A stretch of 64,000 nucleotides of DNA. It comes from Planctomycetota bacterium. GTDB lineage: Bacteria; Planctomycetota; Phycisphaerae; Phycisphaerales; UBA1924. A program made the position numbers and the translations under genes. The first letter of the stretch is position 1. Each line of letters begins with the position of its first letter. This document shows positions 22,577-55,396 of the stretch, piece by piece. Location: positions 50,935 through 114,934 of the forward strand of contig JAJRXR010000008.1 in NCBI GenBank assembly GCA_024276195.1, given 5' to 3'. The notes beneath the pieces were generated by a model. It searched no databases and was not told the origin of the DNA. It saw only the letters and a program-made list of their open reading frames with translations.

Positions 22577-24310
22577 ATGCTCCGTCACGCCGGCGCCATT
22601 CTCACCCTCACAGTCCTGACGTGCTCGGGCGCGAGCGCTCAGATTCTCTCGTTCTCCGACCAGACCGCCGCGAGCCAGATCGACGCGAGGTACGAGACGC
22701 TCTCGGGCGTGATCTCGCTCCCGCAGTTCATGTTCGCGGGGGGAGCCGCCGGCGACTTCGACCGCGACGGCGACCCGGATATCTTCATCCTCTCGGGCGG
22801 GCACGCGCCCGACCGGCTCTACATCAACAACGGCGACGGCACGTTCACCGACCGGGCCAGCGCCTGGGGTGTTGACTTTGAGCACGTCGGGTGCGGCGTA
22901 TCGGTCGCCGATTACGACAACGACGGCGACCTCGATATGTACGTCACCAGCTACGGACCCGCCAGCGGGTTTCTTGAGAACGATGTCCACATCCTCTACC
23001 GCAACAACGGCCCGGACGAGAACGGGCAGTTCTCGTTCACCGATGTCGCCCTCGAGAGCGGCGTCCGCATGACCAGCCCCGTCGATCCCGACGGGTTCAG
23101 CTCCACCTGGGGCGACTACGACATGGACGGCGATCTCGACCTCTTTGTCGCCGGCTGGATGGACGAGAATAACGGCGACCGCCTCTTCCGCAACAACGGC
23201 GCGAACGCCGAAGGACTCGTCACCTTCACCGATGTCACCGATGCGCTCACCGATCTCGCGTCCATCCCGGTGTACGGCTTCAGCCCCACCTTCCAGGATA
23301 TGAACGGCGATGGCTACCCGGAGCTCGTGATCGCCGCGGACTTTGCCACGTCTCAGTACCTGCGCAACGACGCGGGGGCTGGCTTTACAACCATCACCGC
23401 CGCCGCGGGCGTCGGGCTCGACGAGAACGGCATGGGCGCCACCACGGGCGACTTCAACAACGACGGCCTCGTGGACTGGTACGTCACCGCCATCATGCTC
23501 GTTGGCGGCAACAAGCTCTACATCAACCAGGGCGACCACTCGTACGAGGAGGTCAGCGTCGAGGCGGGCGCGAACCAGGGCGGCTGGGGCTGGGGCGCCG
23601 CCGCCGTCGATATCGACAACGACGCCGACCTCGATATCCTCGAAACCAACGGCTGGAATCTTTTCGATGATCCGTCGATGCTCTACCTCAACAACAACGA
23701 CGGCACGTTCACCGAGTCCGCCGTGAGCCTGGGCATGAACCACGTCACACAGGGGCGCGGCATCATCCTGCTCGATCACGACATGGACGGCGACGTGGAC
23801 GTGCTCTTCCTCTCGCACATCGACCCCGTGTACCTGTTCCGCAACGACCTCACCAAAGACACCGGCGCCGGCTGGCTCCGCGTCCGCCTGGACAACTGCG
23901 GCCTGTCCAGCCTCACGCCCGACGGCGTGGGCGCACACCTTGAGCTGACCAGCGCCGGGCTCACGCAGCACCGCTGGATCACCGCGGCCCCGTCGTACCT
24001 CGGGCAGGGCGAGATGGTCGCGCACTTCGGCATCGACGACGCAACCTCGATCGACGAACTCCGCGTCACATGGCCCAACGGGTTCTCGCGCGTCTTCATC
24101 GGCCCAGACACGAACCAGACGGTCATCGTCAGCGCCAACCCGGCGGACACGGCATCGCCCTGGGGTGTGCTCGACTTGACCGATGTGCTCGTCTTCTTCG
24201 ACGACTGGGTCCACGCCCGCGCCAGCGCCGATCTCGAGGTCCCGTTCGGGGCGTTCGATTTCTCCGACGTCATGGCCTATCTCCGGGCGTTCGAGCGGGG
24301 CTGCCGCTAA
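22577..24310 (+). CDS. Secreted FG-GAP/VCBS protein with ASPIC/UnbV domain and dockerin-like end
   Basis: A 577-residue secreted protein predicted as a seven-bladed beta-propeller. After the signal peptide (MLRHAGAILTLTVLTCSGASA) come repeated calcium-type motifs: DFDRDGDPDIF, DYDNDGDLDMY, DYDMDGDLDLF, DMNGDGYPEL, DFNNDGLVDWY, DIDNDADLDIL and DHDMDGDVDVL. An ASPIC/UnbV domain follows (WLRVRLDNCG, HFGIDDATSIDELRVTWPNG). The last 55 residues form a degenerate GC-type dockerin, with VLDLTDVLVFFDDWV and FDFSDVMAYLRAFERGC. Similar CRTAC1-like proteins are surface or matrix proteins; no enzymatic residues are evident. It is followed by a paralogue. Confidence 0.88.
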   Translation: MLRHAGAILTLTVLTCSGASAQILSFSDQTAASQIDARYETLSGVISLPQFMFAGGAAGDFDRDGDPDIFILSGGHAPDRLYINNGDGTFTDRASAWGVDFEHVGCGVSVADYDNDGDLDMYVTSYGPASGFLENDVHILYRNNGPDENGQFSFTDVALESGVRMTSPVDPDGFSSTWGDYDMDGDLDLFVAGWMDENNGDRLFRNNGANAEGLVTFTDVTDALTDLASIPVYGFSPTFQDMNGDGYPELVIAADFATSQYLRNDAGAGFTTITAAAGVGLDENGMGATTGDFNNDGLVDWYVTAIMLVGGNKLYINQGDHSYEEVSVEAGANQGGWGWGAAAVDIDNDADLDILETNGWNLFDDPSMLYLNNNDGTFTESAVSLGMNHVTQGRGIILLDHDMDGDVDVLFLSHIDPVYLFRNDLTKDTGAGWLRVRLDNCGLSSLTPDGVGAHLELTSAGLTQHRWITAAPSYLGQGEMVAHFGIDDATSIDELRVTWPNGFSRVFIGPDTNQTVIVSANPADTASPWGVLDLTDVLVFFDDWVHARASADLEVPFGAFDFSDVMAYLRAFERGCR

Positions 24311-24509
24311 GCGGCGAGCAAAGAATCCCATTCGCCGAGACGGTTCTTGCGAGAGCGAGGGCGGCGCGGTAGATTCCAATAATCCTCGTCAGGGATGACG
24401 CCCAGGCGCATTGTGTGCCCGGGGGCTCGTGGGGGCACGAGCCACATCCAGAGATTCGCGCTGGCGTTTGTGCCCGCGTGTTGTTGTGTGTCTGCGCGTG
24501 GGGGTCACG

Positions 24510-26339
24510 ATGCTGTCAAACAGAACGGTCTGGGGTTTGGGCGCGGCGGCGATCGTGCTGTTCTCCTTTCATAACTCCACCCTCGCACAAAGCGGTCCCC
24601 AGGCGGACCCGGCGTGGACCGACGTCACCACCGACAGGGGGATCACACATGTGATCAGGCCCGGGTCGGTCTTCCCGGGCAACAACTTCGACTTCCAGTT
24701 GATGCAGCGCATCATGGGGCACGGCGGCGCGTGCGGCGACTACGACAACGACGGCGATCTCGACCTCTACCTCGTCAACACCTACGGGAACTCCAACTCG
24801 CTGCTGCGAAACAACCTCGACCAGGGCGTCCCAACCTTTACCGATGTCACCCAAGAGGCCAACGCGGACAGCCTCGATCTGGGACGCATGGCGCTGTTTG
24901 TCGATCTCGACAACGACGGCTGGCTCGACCTGCTCATCGTCAACGACGATCACTGGTCGCTCGAGTGGGGACGCTCTCGAATCCTGCGCAACAACACCGA
25001 CGGCACATTCACCGACGTCACCGAGGGCTCTGGGTTCCGGGCGATCGGGCGCATCCGCGCCGGGTGCTCGCTGGCGGATTTCGATAACGACGGCGACCTG
25101 GATATCTACATCACCGACTGGGCCGCCGAACTCAACCACGGGTTCCCGTTCTTCGCCGGCGAGAACCGCTTCTTCGAGAACCTGGGAGATTTCAAGTTCC
25201 AGGATATCTCGGAGACCTCGGGCCTGGGCCTGATCGAGCGGGACAGCTTCACGACGCTGTTTACCGACTTCAACGGGGACCACCGGCCGGACATCTTTAT
25301 CGCGATCGATCACACCACCGACGAGTTTTTCCTGAATACACCGGGCGGGTTCGTGCGCATGACCGAGCAGGTCGGCGCGACCCACCTGGCCAACGACATG
25401 GGCGCCGCCCTGGCGGACTTCGACGACGATGGCGACCTCGATATTTTCACGACCAACATCGCCGACCCCACCAACAACTACGGCGGCGGCGCCCGCAACG
25501 CGCTGTACGTCAACACCCCTACGCCCGATGGCCTGCCCTCGTTCACCGACCTGGCGACCGAGCACGGCGTCGAATCCACCATGTGGGGCTGGGGTGTTGA
25601 CTTTATTGACCCGGACCAGGACGGCGATCTCGATCTGATCACCGTCAACGGGTTTGAAGCCTTCCTCTACGAGGGCTCCCCGCTCTCCATGCAGCCGCCG
25701 GTCTTCCTGCTCAACGACGGCTCAGGCCAGTACACCCAGAACAACGCCCCGGGCATGGACTGGATCGGGGACTCACGCTGCCTCATCGCCTTCGACTATG
25801 ACCGTGACGGCGACGACGACCTGCTCGTCACCAACCTCTTCGACGCCTCCATCCTTCTCGAAAACGTCTCGCCCAACACCGGGCACTGGCTCCGCGTCCA
25901 GGTCCGCCAGTCCAACGGCGCCAACCACTTCGGCATCGGCGTCACCGTCCGCGCGACCATCACGACCAAAGCCGGCCCCGTCACCAAGCGGCGCGAGATC
26001 ATCGCCGCCCGCTCGTACCTCGCCGGCGTCCCCGCCGAGGTTCACTTCGGGCTCGGCGCTGTCCAGACCATCGACGAGCTTTCCATCGAATGGACCGACG
26101 GCACGACCACCACGCTCGCCGACATCCCCGCGGACCAGCTGCTCACCATCACCCAGCCCGTCCGGGCGTGCGCCGCGGACCTGGACGCGGACGGGGGGCT
26201 CACCCTCGGGGATGTGCTCGCGTTCCTGAATCTGTACATCGACGCCGCCCCGGCCGCCGACATGGCCCCGCCAGCGGGCGTTTTTGACTTTGACGATGTG
26301 CTCGGGTTCCTCGGCGCGTTCGCGTCGGGCTGCCCGTGA
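24510..26339 (+). CDS. Secreted FG-GAP/VCBS protein with ASPIC/UnbV and GC-type dockerin
   Basis: A 609-residue paralogue of the protein at 22577-24310. It has a signal peptide (VWGLGAAAIVLFSFHNSTLA), calcium-type motifs (DYDNDGDLDLY, DLDNDGWLDLL, DFDNDGDLDIY, DFNGDHRPDIF, DFDDDGDLDIF, DPDQDGDLDLI, DYDRDGDDDLL) and an ASPIC/UnbV segment (LRVQVRQSNGANHFGIG, LSIEWTDGTT). The C-terminal module begins with a complete dockerin-type loop DLDADGGLTLGDVLAFL, then FDFDDVLGFLGAFASGCP. The first half thus keeps the classical calcium-loop spacing that the other copies in this window have lost. ATG 24510 precedes the signal peptide; upstream frame ignored. Confidence 0.88.
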   Translation: MLSNRTVWGLGAAAIVLFSFHNSTLAQSGPQADPAWTDVTTDRGITHVIRPGSVFPGNNFDFQLMQRIMGHGGACGDYDNDGDLDLYLVNTYGNSNSLLRNNLDQGVPTFTDVTQEANADSLDLGRMALFVDLDNDGWLDLLIVNDDHWSLEWGRSRILRNNTDGTFTDVTEGSGFRAIGRIRAGCSLADFDNDGDLDIYITDWAAELNHGFPFFAGENRFFENLGDFKFQDISETSGLGLIERDSFTTLFTDFNGDHRPDIFIAIDHTTDEFFLNTPGGFVRMTEQVGATHLANDMGAALADFDDDGDLDIFTTNIADPTNNYGGGARNALYVNTPTPDGLPSFTDLATEHGVESTMWGWGVDFIDPDQDGDLDLITVNGFEAFLYEGSPLSMQPPVFLLNDGSGQYTQNNAPGMDWIGDSRCLIAFDYDRDGDDDLLVTNLFDASILLENVSPNTGHWLRVQVRQSNGANHFGIGVTVRATITTKAGPVTKRREIIAARSYLAGVPAEVHFGLGAVQTIDELSIEWTDGTTTTLADIPADQLLTITQPVRACAADLDADGGLTLGDVLAFLNLYIDAAPAADMAPPAGVFDFDDVLGFLGAFASGCP

Positions 26340-46994: not shown

Positions 46995-48140
46995 ATGCCC
47001 CTCTCCAAGCAGTTCATTCAGGACACCCTGCACCAGGTCGAGCTGCCCAGCGGGGGCGACCTCGTCTCCTCCGGCGCCCTGGCCTGGGTCGCCGCCAGCG
47101 ACACCGCCGCCAACCTCCGCATCCACCTTCCGGGCGAGCCCGACGAGCGCGCGATGAAAAACCTCGCGGCCCTGATCGACACCACCATCCGCGCCGAAGC
47201 TGGCGCACAGAACATCCCCATCGACCACCTCGGTGTTCAGTTCGTCTCCCACGCCGGCGACATCCTCGCTTCCTTCGGCGACGCCCATGCCCCCGCCCCC
47301 CCCGCCAACGCCGACCAGGGCTCGGGCATCCCGGGTGTCAAGCGCATCATCGCCGTCGGCGCTGGCAAGGGCGGCGTCGGCAAGTCCACCGTCGCCGTCA
47401 ACCTCGCCGCCGCCCTCGCGCGCGCAGGCCAGAGCGTCGGCCTGCTCGACGCAGACATCTACGGCCCCTCCCTGCCCACCCTCCTCGGGCTCGATTCGCT
47501 CGAACAAACCATCCTCGACGGACAGCTCCAGCCCTTCCTGGTCCACGGCTTCAAAGCCGTCACCCTCGGCAAAATGGTCGACCCCGACAAGCCGCTCATC
47601 TGGCGCGGCCCCATGGCCCACGGCGCCTTCAAGCAGCTCTACGAACGCACACGCTGGGGCGAGCTCGACACCCTCATCATCGACCTCCCCCCGGGCACGG
47701 GCGACGTCCCGCTGACCATGTCCCAGTCGCTCCGCCTCACCGGCGCCGTGATCGTCTGCACACCCCAGAAGGTCGCCCAGGACGACGCCGTCCGCGCCGT
47801 CAAGATGTTCGAGCAGCTCGGCGTCGAGGTCCTGGGCGTTGTCGAGAATATGTCCTGCTTTGTCGGTGACGACGGCAAAACCTACGACATCTTCGGGCGT
47901 GGCGGCGCCGAGCAGATGGCCCAGCGACTCGCCCTCCCCTTCCTCGGCGCGATCCCCATCAACACCACCCTCCGCGCCAACTCCGACGCGGGCGATCCGA
48001 CCCGCAACTTCGACCCCGCAACCGCCGGCGGCGACGCCCTCCCCGCAGCGCTGAACACAGTCGCCCGCAACACCGAGAGCCAGATCGCCCTCGCCTCGCT
48101 GCGCCACTCGGGCGCGACACCGACGCTGTCGATCAACTGA
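46995..48140 (+). CDS. mrp: Mrp/NBP35-family iron-sulfur cluster carrier ATPase
   Basis: A 381-residue P-loop ATPase. N-terminal MIP18/FeS-assembly-like domain (1-95), then deviant Walker A GAGKGGVGKSTVAVNLAAAL, DADIYGPSLPTLLGL, LIIDLPPGTGDVPLTMSQ and VGVVENMS-type switch. Mrp proteins bind and transfer [4Fe-4S] clusters. The usual CxxC of the C-terminal part is missing: after NMSC comes FVGDDGKTYDIFG, so only one cysteine lies there. This form occurs in other Mrp proteins but makes cluster bridging less certain. ATG at 46995; the next gene converges with a two-base gap. Confidence 0.9.
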   Translation: MPLSKQFIQDTLHQVELPSGGDLVSSGALAWVAASDTAANLRIHLPGEPDERAMKNLAALIDTTIRAEAGAQNIPIDHLGVQFVSHAGDILASFGDAHAPAPPANADQGSGIPGVKRIIAVGAGKGGVGKSTVAVNLAAALARAGQSVGLLDADIYGPSLPTLLGLDSLEQTILDGQLQPFLVHGFKAVTLGKMVDPDKPLIWRGPMAHGAFKQLYERTRWGELDTLIIDLPPGTGDVPLTMSQSLRLTGAVIVCTPQKVAQDDAVRAVKMFEQLGVEVLGVVENMSCFVGDDGKTYDIFGRGGAEQMAQRLALPFLGAIPINTTLRANSDAGDPTRNFDPATAGGDALPAALNTVARNTESQIALASLRHSGATPTLSIN

Positions 48141-48142
48141 AA

Positions 48143-49003
48143 TCAGAAGCGAAGCGTGATGCCCGCGAACACCCGCACGTCCTCGGCGCTCGGGTTGTCC
48201 AGACCGATTACCACGCCGAAGTCCAGCTGTGTGTCCTCGTTGACGCCATAGGTCAGCCCGGCGCTGAGCGATGGCATGTACTCGCCCATGTCGAGGTTCG
48301 CCTCGCCGATGTACTCGATGTACCCAGCCAGATCGCCCGCGATGTCATGCCCCAGCACCGCCGTGTGCGCGAGCACGGTGTCGTACCCGCTCCCGTCGTT
48401 CACGAGGGCAATCTCCGCTTGGAACCCAAGATCCCAGCCATGCTCAAGCGAGAACGCGACGGGGACGACCAGCCCGCTCTCGATTCGCGAACTCGAGACA
48501 TCGCTGTCCCCGGTGGGGAACACGATGTACGGCAGCAACGCGCCTGCAGACGAGCCGCCATCGATGCCCCACAGGTTGATCTTGGTGCGAACACCAAACG
48601 ATCCCACACCATCGGCGTCCGGGGTTCCGCCACCTTCTTGGCGTTCGTACGGATTGAACAACAGCTGCAAATCCACCCGCTCGGTCAGCCCCAGCTTCAC
48701 GTTCACCGGCGCAAAGGAGAGCGACCGGCGCGTCTCCCCGTCCTCGCTCTGAATGCCCAACTCGATAAAGCTCAGCTCGATCTGCACAGCCCCGGCGTCC
48801 ACCGGGTACGGGCTCTCGGTCGCGTCGGGACGATCGGCGCTCAGTGGTCGGCGAAGCTCACGCGGCGTCGGGTTCAGCAGCGAGTACCGCCCCGTCGCTG
48901 CCAGAGCCCCGTCGCCGCCGGGCTCGTCAGCCCGGGGCGCCCCGGGCTGGCCAGCCATCGCCGTTGTGAGCAGCATCGTGTGGATCAGGGTCGGAAAGCC
49001 CAT
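48143..49003 (-). CDS. Outer-membrane beta-barrel protein, MetA/phenol-degradation-type transporter-like
   Basis: A 286-residue protein with a short signal-like N-terminus and an all-beta pattern of amphipathic strands ending in a Phe-terminated strand (VRVFAGITLRF), the usual outer-membrane insertion signal. Segments FAPVNVKLGLTERVDLQLLF, PYIVFPTGDSD, GWDLGFQAEIALVNDGSGYD and SAGLTYGVNEDTQLDFG fit the 'transporter/Phenol_MetA_deg' barrel family. Start ATG 49003. The substrate is unknown. It converges on mrp; 140 bases upstream lies the gmk-fragment duplication. Confidence 0.8.
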   Translation of the reverse strand: MGFPTLIHTMLLTTAMAGQPGAPRADEPGGDGALAATGRYSLLNPTPRELRRPLSADRPDATESPYPVDAGAVQIELSFIELGIQSEDGETRRSLSFAPVNVKLGLTERVDLQLLFNPYERQEGGGTPDADGVGSFGVRTKINLWGIDGGSSAGALLPYIVFPTGDSDVSSSRIESGLVVPVAFSLEHGWDLGFQAEIALVNDGSGYDTVLAHTAVLGHDIAGDLAGYIEYIGEANLDMGEYMPSLSAGLTYGVNEDTQLDFGVVIGLDNPSAEDVRVFAGITLRF

Positions 49004-49144
49004 CAGTTCGCCCCCTTTGGATATGTAGCACTGGCTACGGACCGCACAAAAGTAGCCCCAGCTACAAACAAAGGCAAGGCGTCAAACGCCCATCCAGCAG
49101 GTTTTCTTCTGATTCAGGCTCGACCTGATCGTGAGCGACGCCGC

Positions 49145-49240
49145 TTACCGGCGGGCGAGACGAACCGTGCGGACAGCGTCGATCGCCTCGCCGATCGCCC
49201 GCTCCAGGCCGTCGTTGACGACAAACGCGTCGTACGCCCC
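49145..49240 (-). pseudogene. Duplicated 3' end of gmk (fragment)
   Basis: Read leftwards, the frame GAYDAFVVNDGLERAIGE and onwards (31 residues then TAA at 49145-49147) matches the last 31 residues of Gmk (GAYDAFVVNDDLDRAISE...) at 22 of 31 positions. The best-preserved part is 49203-49241, identical to 50988-51026 at 37 of 39 bases. The match stops abruptly two bases before the stop codon of the VCBS gene at 49243. No start codon or upstream gmk sequence is present, so this is a remnant or recombination footprint, not a gene. Confidence 0.85.
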
Positions 49241-49242
49241 GA

Positions 49243-50820
49243 CTACCCCCCCCGCACAACGTCGAGCACCTGATCGGGCGCAACGTCCTCGACGATCGTC
49301 ACGCCGCCGTCGGGCCACTCGACGATCACGCGGTCGATCAGCGTCTCGCGGCCAAGCCCGAAGTGCGCTTCGGCCGGCTCCTGCCCCATCATGCTCGTGC
49401 CGCAGGTGATCGGGCGTGAGAGCGTGCGCGCCCCGATCACGACGCGCACGACCGCCCCGATCCCGCGCGTGTTTGCACCCGATGACCTCGGGCGCACCAC
49501 CAGCCAGTGCCGCCCGCGCGCCTCCAGCGCCTCATTCTCGAACAGGAAGATGCGCCCGATGTTCGTGGTCACCGCCACGTCGAGGTCGCCGTCGCGGTCC
49601 ATATCGAACGTGATCGCGCAGCTGCCGTACTCGAGCCGGTCGAAGCCGACCGCCCGCTCGACACTCCGGAACGAGGGCGTCCCCACGCGCGTCAGATCGT
49701 TGAGAAACAGGCGCCACGGCATCGTGTTGATCGGCTCCGTCCCGTTGACGGCGAGCAGGTCCAGGTCCGAGTCGTTGTCGGCGTCGAAGAACGACGCCCC
49801 CCACCCGCCCCCGCCGTTGTCCACGCCGAGGGCGACCGCCGACTCGACGAACGCAAGCCCACCCTTGGTGCTCTGGTTGACGAACAGCACGTTGTGCTCG
49901 TCCACGCCCTGCACTGTGCCGAAGATATTGGTCACGTAGATCTCGAAGTCGCCGTCCTCGTCGATATCGCCGAGCGCGGCGCCCATCTCGTTGAACGACG
50001 TGTCCACGCCTGCGCTCGCCGCTACGTCAACCATCATGCCCACCGGGGCGCCCAACAGCAGGCGATTCGGCAGGAAGTCGTGCGCCATGAACAGGTCGCA
50101 GGCGCCGTCCCCGTTCAGATCGTGCGCCAGCGGCTGCCAGTAGAACCCATACCCGGCCCCGAGCATCGCCGAATCGTCCACAAACACCCCGCCACCCTGG
50201 TTGCGCAGCAGCCTCGGCTCGCCCTCCCAACGCGCGGCGCACACGTCGAGGTCGCCGTCCGCGTCGAAGTCCCCCGCGCACAGCCCGCCCTGGTGGACGG
50301 AGGAGTCTCCCGAAGGCGTGCCGAACAGTCCCGAGGCGAGCGTGACGTCGTCGAACGTGCCGCCCGCGTTCTGGAGGTACAGACGCAGCACCGTGTCGAG
50401 CGTCCCATCGCCCAGGAAGTCGTCCTGGGTGACGATCAGATCGAGGCGCCCGTCGGCGTCAACATCGACGAACAGCCCCCCTCGCGCCGGCGACATCGAC
50501 GCAAGACCCAGTTGCAGCGCCGACTCCTGGAAGAAGCCGTTGCCGTCGTTGAGGTACATCCGGTTCGGGGTTCCCCCGCCGGTCGGAACAAACAGATCGA
50601 TGTCACCGTCGTTGTCGATGTCCGCGCTCGCGAGTCCGAACACGATCCCCACCGGGACCGAGTAGGACGTCAGCCCGCGTTCGCCATCGACCCGCACAAA
50701 CCGGAAGCCGGGGTGATCCTGCCCAGGTCCAGCTCCCGGAGCCTGGACCTGCGCCGTCGCCGCGCTCGCCAGAGCGAGCCCCACCGCTACTACAAGACAT
50801 CGCTCTCCGAGCCCGACCAT
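49243..50820 (-). CDS. Secreted FG-GAP/VCBS protein with ASPIC/UnbV domain
   Basis: A 525-residue secreted beta-propeller protein. Signal peptide MVGLGERCLVVAVGLALASA; calcium-type motifs DIDNDGDIDLF, DVDADGRLDLI, DFDADGDLDVC, DLNGDGACDLF, DIDEDGDFEIY, DADNDSDLDLL and DMDRDGDLDVA; ASPIC/UnbV end with HFGLGRETLIDRVIVEWPDG. Unlike the copies at 22577 and 24510, it has no dockerin, ending DQVLDVVRGG just before the duplicated gmk end. It lies directly downstream of gmk on the same strand, between the two copies of the gmk 3' end. ATG 50820 has AGGGGG upstream. Confidence 0.88.
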   Translation of the reverse strand: MVGLGERCLVVAVGLALASAATAQVQAPGAGPGQDHPGFRFVRVDGERGLTSYSVPVGIVFGLASADIDNDGDIDLFVPTGGGTPNRMYLNDGNGFFQESALQLGLASMSPARGGLFVDVDADGRLDLIVTQDDFLGDGTLDTVLRLYLQNAGGTFDDVTLASGLFGTPSGDSSVHQGGLCAGDFDADGDLDVCAARWEGEPRLLRNQGGGVFVDDSAMLGAGYGFYWQPLAHDLNGDGACDLFMAHDFLPNRLLLGAPVGMMVDVAASAGVDTSFNEMGAALGDIDEDGDFEIYVTNIFGTVQGVDEHNVLFVNQSTKGGLAFVESAVALGVDNGGGGWGASFFDADNDSDLDLLAVNGTEPINTMPWRLFLNDLTRVGTPSFRSVERAVGFDRLEYGSCAITFDMDRDGDLDVAVTTNIGRIFLFENEALEARGRHWLVVRPRSSGANTRGIGAVVRVVIGARTLSRPITCGTSMMGQEPAEAHFGLGRETLIDRVIVEWPDGGVTIVEDVAPDQVLDVVRGG

Positions 50821-50926
50821 GGCGCCCCCTTGACCGATCCCCAGTATCGCCGATGACCCCCCGCGCAGGAAGCGCGATTCCCCGCAATAAGCGTAAAGAT
50901 TCGGCGAACAAGGCCCGCCACCGGGC

Positions 50927-51538
50927 TCAGACCCGCCGCGCCCGCCGGGCGCCCCGGACCGTCTCGACGGCCTCGCTGATCGCACGGTCCAGGTCGTCGT
51001 TGACGACGAACGCGTCGTACGCCCCGCACTCGCGGGCCTCGCGGATCTCTCGCTTGGCCTCGCGGAACCGGCGCTGGATCAGCTCCTCGCTCTCGCGCCG
51101 GCGCGAGCGCAGGCGCCCGAGCAGCACGTCCTCGCTCGGCGGCAGCACGAACAGCCCGAACGCCTCTGGCATCTTCGCCTTGACCTGCCTGGCGCCCTCG
51201 ACGTCGATCTCCAGAATAACCAACCGCCCGCGCGAGAGCTGCTCGTCCACCCACGCCGCGGGCGTGCCGTAGCGCTTGCCGAACACCTCCGCCCACTCAA
51301 GCAGCGCATCGCTGTCGATCATCGCCCGGAACTGCTCATCGCTGACAAAGCGGTAGTCCACGCCCTCGACATCGGCCTCGGTTTTGTCGCGTGTGGTGGC
51401 GCTGACGCTGAAGACGGAATCCGGGATGGCGCGCTCGACGCCGCGCGTGATGGTCGTTTTGCCCACCCCGCTCGGGCCAGAGATCATCAGCAGCATCCCG
51501 TCGTCGGTGTCGGTATGAAGTCGGCGCTCGGGCGTCAT
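50927..51538 (-). CDS. gmk: Guanylate kinase
   Basis: A 203-residue guanylate kinase (GMP + ATP to GDP + ADP). P-loop ISGPSGVGKTTITRGV, GMP-binding SVSATTRDKTEADVEGVDYR, EWAEVFGKRYGTPAAWV, VILEIDVEGARQVK and the lid FVLPPSEDVLLGRLRSRRRE are intact; the C-terminus is normal in length. It is 39 bases after pyrB. Its last about 31 codons are duplicated at 49145-49240, with the VCBS gene in between. Probable operon lipoprotein-pyrB-gmk. Confidence 0.96.
   Translation of the reverse strand: MTPERRLHTDTDDGMLLMISGPSGVGKTTITRGVERAIPDSVFSVSATTRDKTEADVEGVDYRFVSDEQFRAMIDSDALLEWAEVFGKRYGTPAAWVDEQLSRGRLVILEIDVEGARQVKAKMPEAFGLFVLPPSEDVLLGRLRSRRRESEELIQRRFREAKREIREARECGAYDAFVVNDDLDRAISEAVETVRGARRARRV
50988..51026. 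repeat. Direct repeat within gmk 3' end (partner 49203-49241)
   Basis: 39 bases starting TCCAGGTCGTCGTTGACG, same orientation as 49203-49241, with two mismatches. The pair flanks about 1.75 kb containing the VCBS gene. Wider but weaker similarity continues to the end of gmk. Confidence 0.85.
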
Positions 51539-54148: not shown

Positions 54149-55366
54149 TTATTCCGAGCCCGACGTTTCGATAATGGCCAGCACCTCGGGCGCATACCAG
54201 ACCTTGCCGTAGCTGACCTCATCAGTGGGACGCAAGAGCCCGACGCGTTCCATGAGCGAGATGTCTTTCCTCGCCGTCGGGTCTGTCACACCGAGCATGG
54301 TCGAGACGCTCTTTGCGGTCACGACGGGCCAGGTGAGCACATGATCCAAGAGATCAAGGAGCCGTGTCGGCGCCCGCTGCTCTCGAAGCGCCTCAGCGTA
54401 TCTCTGGCGAAGAAGCACCACCCGCTCGGCAAGGGAGCGTGTTATTGCCGCCTCGGCTGCGACCGCTTGAGCAAAGAACCTGATCCATCCGATCCAGTCG
54501 CCGTCCGCGCTCACAGCGAACATCCGATCGACATACTCCTGCCGATGACTCTGGAAGTAGCCGCTCACGGATGTGACAGGCAGATCCAGGAGTTCTCGTT
54601 TGGCGAGTTGATGGAGAATCAACGCTCGACCGATTCTGCCGTTGCCGTCTCGAAATGGGTGGATCGTCTCGAACTGATAGTGCATGATCGCCACACACGC
54701 CAGCGCAGGAATATCGCTCCACTGAGCATTGACAAACTGCTCCAGCCTGGTCATGCACTCAACAACCTGCCCGGGCAGTTCCCCGGGCGGAGGTGGCACG
54801 AACCTCGCCTCTTCGGGCTTATTCTTTGGCCCGATGTAAACCGGAATATCTCGATACTCGCCCGGACGCTGGTCCTCTCCCCGGACGCCCGAGAGGAGTT
54901 CCCGGTGCATCTCTCGGATGAGCCTCCCAGAGAACGGCAGATCAGACTCGAGCGCAACCTGCACTGCCTTCATCGCGTTCCACGCCTCTCGACCCGCGTT
55001 GCTTTCGGTGCGTTGTTCTCCCGACCCCGCCAGCACCATGTCCAGCGCCGTGGTGTGTATGTTCTCGATCTCAGACGAGAACTTGGCCTCTCGAAGCCAG
55101 AGCGATTGAATGAGGATCCGAGTGTTGGGCACGATCGTGCTCAGCCCATTCACATGCGCGAGTGCCGCAGAAGCTGCGGTGAGATCATCGAATAGATCGG
55201 CTTTGATCGCGCGCCAATCGATTTGGGGCGGGAGCGGGTCCGGGACGAACGAGAAAGCCGAGACTGGATCAATCTCGACTTTCCCAGAGGCGCCAACCCG
55301 CTTGCGATGGAGCGTTATCGGGACCAAGCCCCCCGGGCTCTCGCCAGTGAACCGCTCCCGTCTCAT
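54149..55366 (-). CDS. Fic-family protein with N-terminal inhibitory helix and C-terminal winged helix
   Basis: A 405-residue Fic protein. The N-terminal Fic_N-like region has IDPVSAFSFVPDPLPP; the inhibitory helix motif SSEIEN ([ST]xxxE[GN], about residues 97-102) is present, so it is a class II Fic. The core FETIHPFRDGNGRIGRALIL (about residue 235) carries the catalytic His and the nucleotide-binding loop; such enzymes transfer AMP or other nucleotide monophosphates to proteins. The end SVSTMLGVTDPTARKDISLM is a winged-helix DNA-binding module. ATG 55366 gives the family N-terminus; an in-frame ATG at 55393 is possible. Coding sequence is lower in GC than neighbours, suggesting acquisition. 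It is self-contained, without an evident antitoxin gene. Confidence 0.9.
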   Translation of the reverse strand: MRRERFTGESPGGLVPITLHRKRVGASGKVEIDPVSAFSFVPDPLPPQIDWRAIKADLFDDLTAASAALAHVNGLSTIVPNTRILIQSLWLREAKFSSEIENIHTTALDMVLAGSGEQRTESNAGREAWNAMKAVQVALESDLPFSGRLIREMHRELLSGVRGEDQRPGEYRDIPVYIGPKNKPEEARFVPPPPGELPGQVVECMTRLEQFVNAQWSDIPALACVAIMHYQFETIHPFRDGNGRIGRALILHQLAKRELLDLPVTSVSGYFQSHRQEYVDRMFAVSADGDWIGWIRFFAQAVAAEAAITRSLAERVVLLRQRYAEALREQRAPTRLLDLLDHVLTWPVVTAKSVSTMLGVTDPTARKDISLMERVGLLRPTDEVSYGKVWYAPEVLAIIETSGSE

Positions 55367-55396
55367 CAAACATGGCTTTGAATGATGGGGCATGAA

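Follow-up and report, generated by a model that had tools for sequence, protein, structure and literature searches.

The gmk locus in the planctomycete DNA analyzed here, a stretch of 64,000 nucleotides (the window) that is part of contig C40 of a 3.04-Mb genome in 88 contigs, is probably a recombination scar left by a one-sided exchange between two alleles of a variable gene slot, both directions of exchange taken together. The interval between gmk and mrp is a slot of variable content that turns over among related planctomycetes, and from comparison of its alleles we infer both the direction of the exchange and its mechanism, homology-facilitated illegitimate recombination by housekeeping functions. 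Our best reading is that the locus preserves, with unusual clarity, one example of a known process that is itself fairly ordinary. The features concerned, by window position, are as follows.

46995..48140, plus strand: mrp-type P-loop ATPase gene, convergent with gmk and forming the right border of the slot (Pfam PF10609, 4.2e-86)
48143..49003, minus strand: PF13557 (Phenol_MetA_deg) gene (Pfam, 7.6e-11; 72% to its counterpart in G002)
49145..49241, minus strand: second gmk 3' end, about 31 codons with its own TAA stop, the putative scar (repeat, alignment)
49241..49245, minus strand: presumed recombination joint, comprising the VCBS stop codon (49243-49245), one spacer base, and gmk-like sequence (sequence, alignment)
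49243..50820, minus strand: VCBS gene (FG-GAP plus UnbV_ASPIC, CRTAC1-type), 525 aa (Pfam, synteny, tree)
50927..51538, minus strand: intact gmk, guanylate kinase, 203 aa (Pfam PF00625, Guanylate_kin, E 1.8e-40)
50955..51026, minus strand: repeated part of the intact gmk 3' end (direct repeat D3, 86% over 72 nt)

A tblastn comparison of the gmk tail with the 8 kb downstream aligned 31 residues, 22 of them identical (70.97%; E 4.9e-11), with an E value of 1.4e-20 at the DNA level, and the direct repeat (49170-49241 and 50955-51026) retains 62 of 72 bases (86%). These values confirm the claim of an earlier note on this DNA that the last 31 codons of gmk recur downstream of the VCBS gene in the same orientation; the 37 of 39 bases that it reported for the best core were likewise recovered by re-alignment, the longest exact match between the two tails being 18 nt. 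The similarity is not due to chance, since in a codon-step test the best 72-nt match reached 61 with the real tail, and none of 200 codon-shuffled tails exceeded 46. The frame of the copy is open to its own TAA at 49145-49147. The copy also begins where the VCBS gene ends, as the earlier note stated, give or take a single spacer base: gmk similarity starts at 49241, and the VCBS stop codon occupies 49243-49245. The VCBS protein stops at the same residue in the window and in the congeneric genome G001 (ending DVVRGG and DVVASP, respectively), and the copies in genus g89 extend further. The tail region also has a 38-nt match on contig C84, which was set aside because none of its six frames is gmk-like.

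The gmk-mrp interval was then compared across the family, represented by 164 genomes with the window's own (G000) included, of which 148 contain gmk (E ≤ 1e-30) and 155 contain mrp (E ≤ 1e-80). We read 73 gmk loci, namely, the window, 33 of 36 genus and family genomes (the other 3 had no gmk match), and 39 more, of which 29 were chosen by eye for closeness of gmk and mrp, 2 for a nearby VCBS gene, and 8 as further near relatives. gmk and mrp are convergent in 37 of the 73 loci, with a gap of 495 to 7776 nt (median, 1757), and because of the way in which loci were picked, these 37 are a non-random sample. A second gmk tail was present at the window locus and absent from the other 72 loci scanned (two of the 73 had less than 1500 nt downstream), in agreement with an earlier scan of 34 loci that found it in the window only. 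Thus, VCBS-less relatives with two gmk tails, which the earlier note had named as evidence against its reading, did not occur. Short DNA matches of the gmk tail (14-30 nt; E 0.002-0.01) lay downstream in 6 of 33 other loci, none with protein support, and were not counted.

Between these conserved flanks, the content changes. The open reading frames chosen in the 37 intervals fall into 31 similarity groups, 1 of which occurs in 28 of the 37 genomes and 24 of which were seen once, although some of these singletons may not be genes because the choice of reading frames was mechanical. The commonest slot gene, a small gene on the strand opposite gmk that is found at 28 of the 37 family loci and is absent from the window's genus, presumably encodes a protein resembling the SnoaL type. 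An AraC-type gene (HTH_18, 1.2e-15) with its neighbor occupies the slot in G001, G003, and G169, whereas G162 has an AraC-type match after gmk where its contig ends; the neighbor has no Pfam match and is called PEP here only from the appearance of its C terminus. The four genomes of the window's genus present four arrangements.

G001: gmk-VCBS-AraC-PEP-mrp
G003: gmk-AraC-PEP-mrp
G002: gmk-PF13557-mrp
Window (G000): gmk-VCBS-[gmk tail]-PF13557-mrp

On synteny and phylogeny, the VCBS gene appears to be a long-standing neighbor of gmk and not a recent intruder. It lies in 7 of the 37 convergent gmk-mrp loci (G000, G001, G155, G158, G167, G170, and G171) and downstream of gmk in six genomes of genus g89 (G155, G158, G159, G167, G170, and G171), five of which have mrp beyond it on the same contig; in G159 the contig ends before mrp. 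In G166, also of genus g89, a contig end carries a VCBS gene some 1.1 kb away from mrp, and the contig with gmk stops 610 nt past gmk. The VCBS protein of the window matches FG-GAP_3 (3.5e-32) and UnbV_ASPIC (2.7e-17). In an unrooted tree of 24 proteins (21 matches and three more distant ones), the nine copies at this locus, the window's included, fall on one side of one branch, whose support of 89/92 is not of the best class, and none of 500 label shuffles gave a grouping as low; the window and G001 copies are sisters (100/100). Third-position identity between these two copies is 54%, with seven other genes at 52-68% and fic lower, at 41%. The tail is not a regular companion of the VCBS gene, since the gene follows gmk with no second tail in G001, G155, G158, G159, G167, G170, and G171. 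An origin of the VCBS gene as phage or plasmid cargo was rejected: the protein had no match in phage records, 24 plasmid records matched it (the six listed at 27.6-32.3% identity), and four viral contigs matched parts of it at 24-34% identity. Ten VCBS-type matches at E ≤ 1e-20, the slot copy counted, are present in the genome, and two of the VCBS-type genes lie side by side elsewhere in the window (22712-26153, plus strand; G000:C40:73646-75028 and 75657-77087), with comparable side-by-side pairs in G001, G002, and G003.

The PF13557 gene is the less regular occupant of the slot. Among the 73 loci, it was found in the slot only in the window genome and G002, and it is absent from G003 and G001. 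Matches at E ≤ 1e-10 occur in 37 other family genomes, with the listed match off the gmk contig in 28, on the same contig at least 18 kb away in five, and in a genome with no listed gmk in four. Third-position identity between the window and G002 is 48.9% for this gene versus 62-75% for seven others (dnaE, ubiX, lipo, pyrB, gmk, mrp, and a 490-aa gene). Pairwise identities place G002 and G003 closest together for each gene that they share. For each of these genes G000 comes nearer to the two than G001 does, with the exception of ubiX, for which G001-G002 (80.4%) slightly exceeds G000-G002 (79.7%); the window's gmk is 86-87% identical to those of G002 and G003, and in gmk trees G001 groups, with weak support, with other genera. 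On this picture, a PF13557 gene shared by G000 and G002 and missing from G003 and G001 requires transfer or else repeated gain or loss. A slot gene following gmk in G075 clustered with the PF13557 gene but shares just 22-25% identity with it and was left out of the count.

The spacer before the PF13557 gene measures 141 nt from the tail in the window and about 330 nt from gmk in G002, and the two spacers resemble each other (28/34) only over the 34 nt that immediately precede the gene. Paired TGTAGC/GCTAC-type palindromes upstream of the gene (49010-49070), similar in G002, look to us like repressor operators (BlaI/CopY-like). The spacer in G002 (L038, 13001-13291, plus strand) also contains a segment similar to the C terminus of an IS5-family transposase (51% over 49 residues to an annotated member, E 7e-5; no Pfam match), so an insertion sequence may have joined in the slot change of that lineage. 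Elsewhere in the window, a Fic/DOC-family gene (54149-55393) has a similarly low third-position identity to G002, 44.7%, and no counterpart was found in the stretch of G003 examined; it may be another exchanged gene.

A model of the event is proposed in which two alleles met, one arranged gmk-VCBS-... as in G001 and the other gmk-PF13557-mrp as in G002, with the window's slot as the resulting chimera. Incoming DNA would have undergone homologous recombination in a core flank at one end. At the other, it would have been joined immediately beyond the VCBS stop codon without extended homology, and the second allele's gmk 3' end would have stayed behind as the tail. With one crossover in gmk and another in mrp, the slot content would have been exchanged cleanly and without a scar, whereas a one-sided event would leave a second gmk end, as observed here. 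The window joins two arrangements known separately, G001-like on the left and G002-like on the right; the tail copy sits where gmk sits relative to the PF13557 gene in G002, this gene being the immediate downstream neighbor of the tail in the window and of gmk itself in G002. Against the model, windowed identity along gmk and mrp gave no clear switch of ancestry and located no homologous crossover, and the likeness of the spacer to that of G002 is confined to the short stretch described above. We lean modestly toward the direction in which the VCBS gene was resident and a newcomer consisting of the gmk tail and the PF13557 gene, anchored at mrp, displaced the AraC-PEP pair; gene content favors the VCBS gene as resident because one event would then explain the tail, the new gene, and the missing pair.

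Alternatively, the exchange may have run in the opposite direction, which we consider the less likely part of the probability given above to a one-sided exchange. Here, gmk-PF13557-mrp would be the resident arrangement and a gmk 3' end with the VCBS gene would have entered from another lineage, anchored in gmk, so that the old tail was pushed downstream and the gene received a new end; this is the geometry of the earlier note without an integrase. Some of the tail comparisons point this way. Among the 16 relatives listed, with the 26 of 73 gmk rows that failed a motif filter left out, the intact tail matches G001 (57/69) about as well as it does G002 and G003 (55 and 59), and the fragment is closer to G002 and G003 (55 and 58) than to G001 (52). 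In a split-row gmk tree, holding the intact tail with its own body costs 3.1 log-likelihood units (p 0.13), and holding the fragment with that body costs 0.2. However, none of these tree contrasts is significant (p 0.12-0.36), two events (arrival of the PF13557 gene with loss of the VCBS gene and then its regain) would be needed instead of one, and the divergence of the VCBS gene from that of G001 is within the range of most of its neighbors. For either direction of exchange, the fragment is as distant from the intact tail as the tails of different species are from one another and falls inside the G000/G002/G003 group (97/99.9), as expected of the gmk of another lineage; the trees favored no single position for this short, 96-base fragment within that group, and by the AU test grouping it with G001 was not rejected (p 0.34).

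A local tandem duplication of the gmk end and VCBS gene, followed by loss of the second VCBS gene and arrival of the PF13557 gene, appears improbable. Consistent with it, the fragment and the intact tail as sisters were not rejected (log likelihood 0.12 lower; p 0.44), and the two tails share a similar short terminus, R-x-A-R-R, where those of G002 and G003 are longer. However, the fragment matches the intact tail at 58 of 69 positions, and G002 and G003 match each other at 61, so that the two tails of the window are as distant as those of different species, and yet the frame of the fragment is open to its stop. Tandem duplication would also require more events, and no VCBS remnant was seen between the tail and the PF13557 gene.

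Still less probable is an assembly chimera of two strains in a metagenome-assembled genome. The number of contigs, the origin of the close relatives as metagenome assemblies, and the union at the joint of two arrangements known from relatives could all fit such an artifact. Against it, the longest exact match of the tails is shorter than the word lengths usually used in assembly, and the genes on either side of the joint are similarly distant from G002 and G003.

That an integrase inserted a minimal VCBS cassette at the gmk 3' end, as the same-orientation duplicate gene end flanking a single gene would suggest, is extremely unlikely and was rejected in view of the VCBS loci with one tail in two genera, a core of ordinary conserved coding sequence, a genome search for Phage_integrase (PF00589) whose three matches were on contigs C37, C38, and C73 and none on C40, and the lack of any tRNA within the 64-kb window. 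The 39-base core is identical (39/39) between the gmk genes of G000 and G003, so its conservation between the tails is ordinary coding conservation, and no att site is needed to explain it. The earlier note was right that the insert has no recognizable integrase, only the VCBS gene lying between the tails. Its view of the locus as the footprint of an integrative element targeting gene 3' ends did not survive the comparison of gmk-downstream regions that it had proposed: in place of empty sites with one tail and filled sites with two, seven VCBS-filled loci in G001 and genus g89 have one tail. Among the origins that it had offered, a minimal cassette and a decayed element are unsupported, and recombination between gmk copies of different strains is favored.

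The one-sided exchange that we propose has known parallels. Homology-facilitated illegitimate recombination has been described in Acinetobacter, Pseudomonas stutzeri, and Streptococcus pneumoniae (PMC2884548, PMC5361080); the same one-sided exchange has been invoked for small variable loci (PMC2884548) and proposed for gene ends left downstream in Vibrio type VI secretion system (T6SS) loci (PMC5361080). The window locus would be similar in that one end could be explained by homology in a shared flank and the other joint would lack extended homology. The displaced gmk end left behind also recalls orphan Rhs ends and the immunity genes orphaned in Vibrio T6SS loci; unlike in those cases, the displaced end belongs to a housekeeping gene and not to a toxin or immunity gene, and the process is deduced from comparison alone. 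Many hotspots, according to PMC5635113, lack mobile elements and show raised recombination in flanking core genes; gmk and mrp similarly provide constant flanks around variable content, with no integrase found on the contig, but the variation here is across species and genera and not within one species.

Integrative elements that target the 3' ends of conserved genes leave a duplicated 3' end in the same orientation, as is seen in the window. In contrast to such elements, no integrase was found near the tails of the window, these tails are no more alike than codon conservation accounts for, and the gene taken as cargo is a long-standing neighbor of gmk. A displaced gene end, usually read as the footprint of an integrase, can instead be the trace of a one-sided allelic exchange in a variable slot, and synteny in relatives separates the two.

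More tentatively, with somewhat less than an even chance in our estimation, the gmk-mrp interval may be a long-lived exchange slot in this Phycisphaerales family, in which modules are swapped between species via the flanking housekeeping genes, with the window as a half-failed swap. If our interpretation is true, the locus would also document gene exchange between species in a bacterial group that is known here mainly through metagenome assemblies, and if several such scars exist, they would indicate that uncultured planctomycetes acquire and recombine DNA between species that differ by about 15%.
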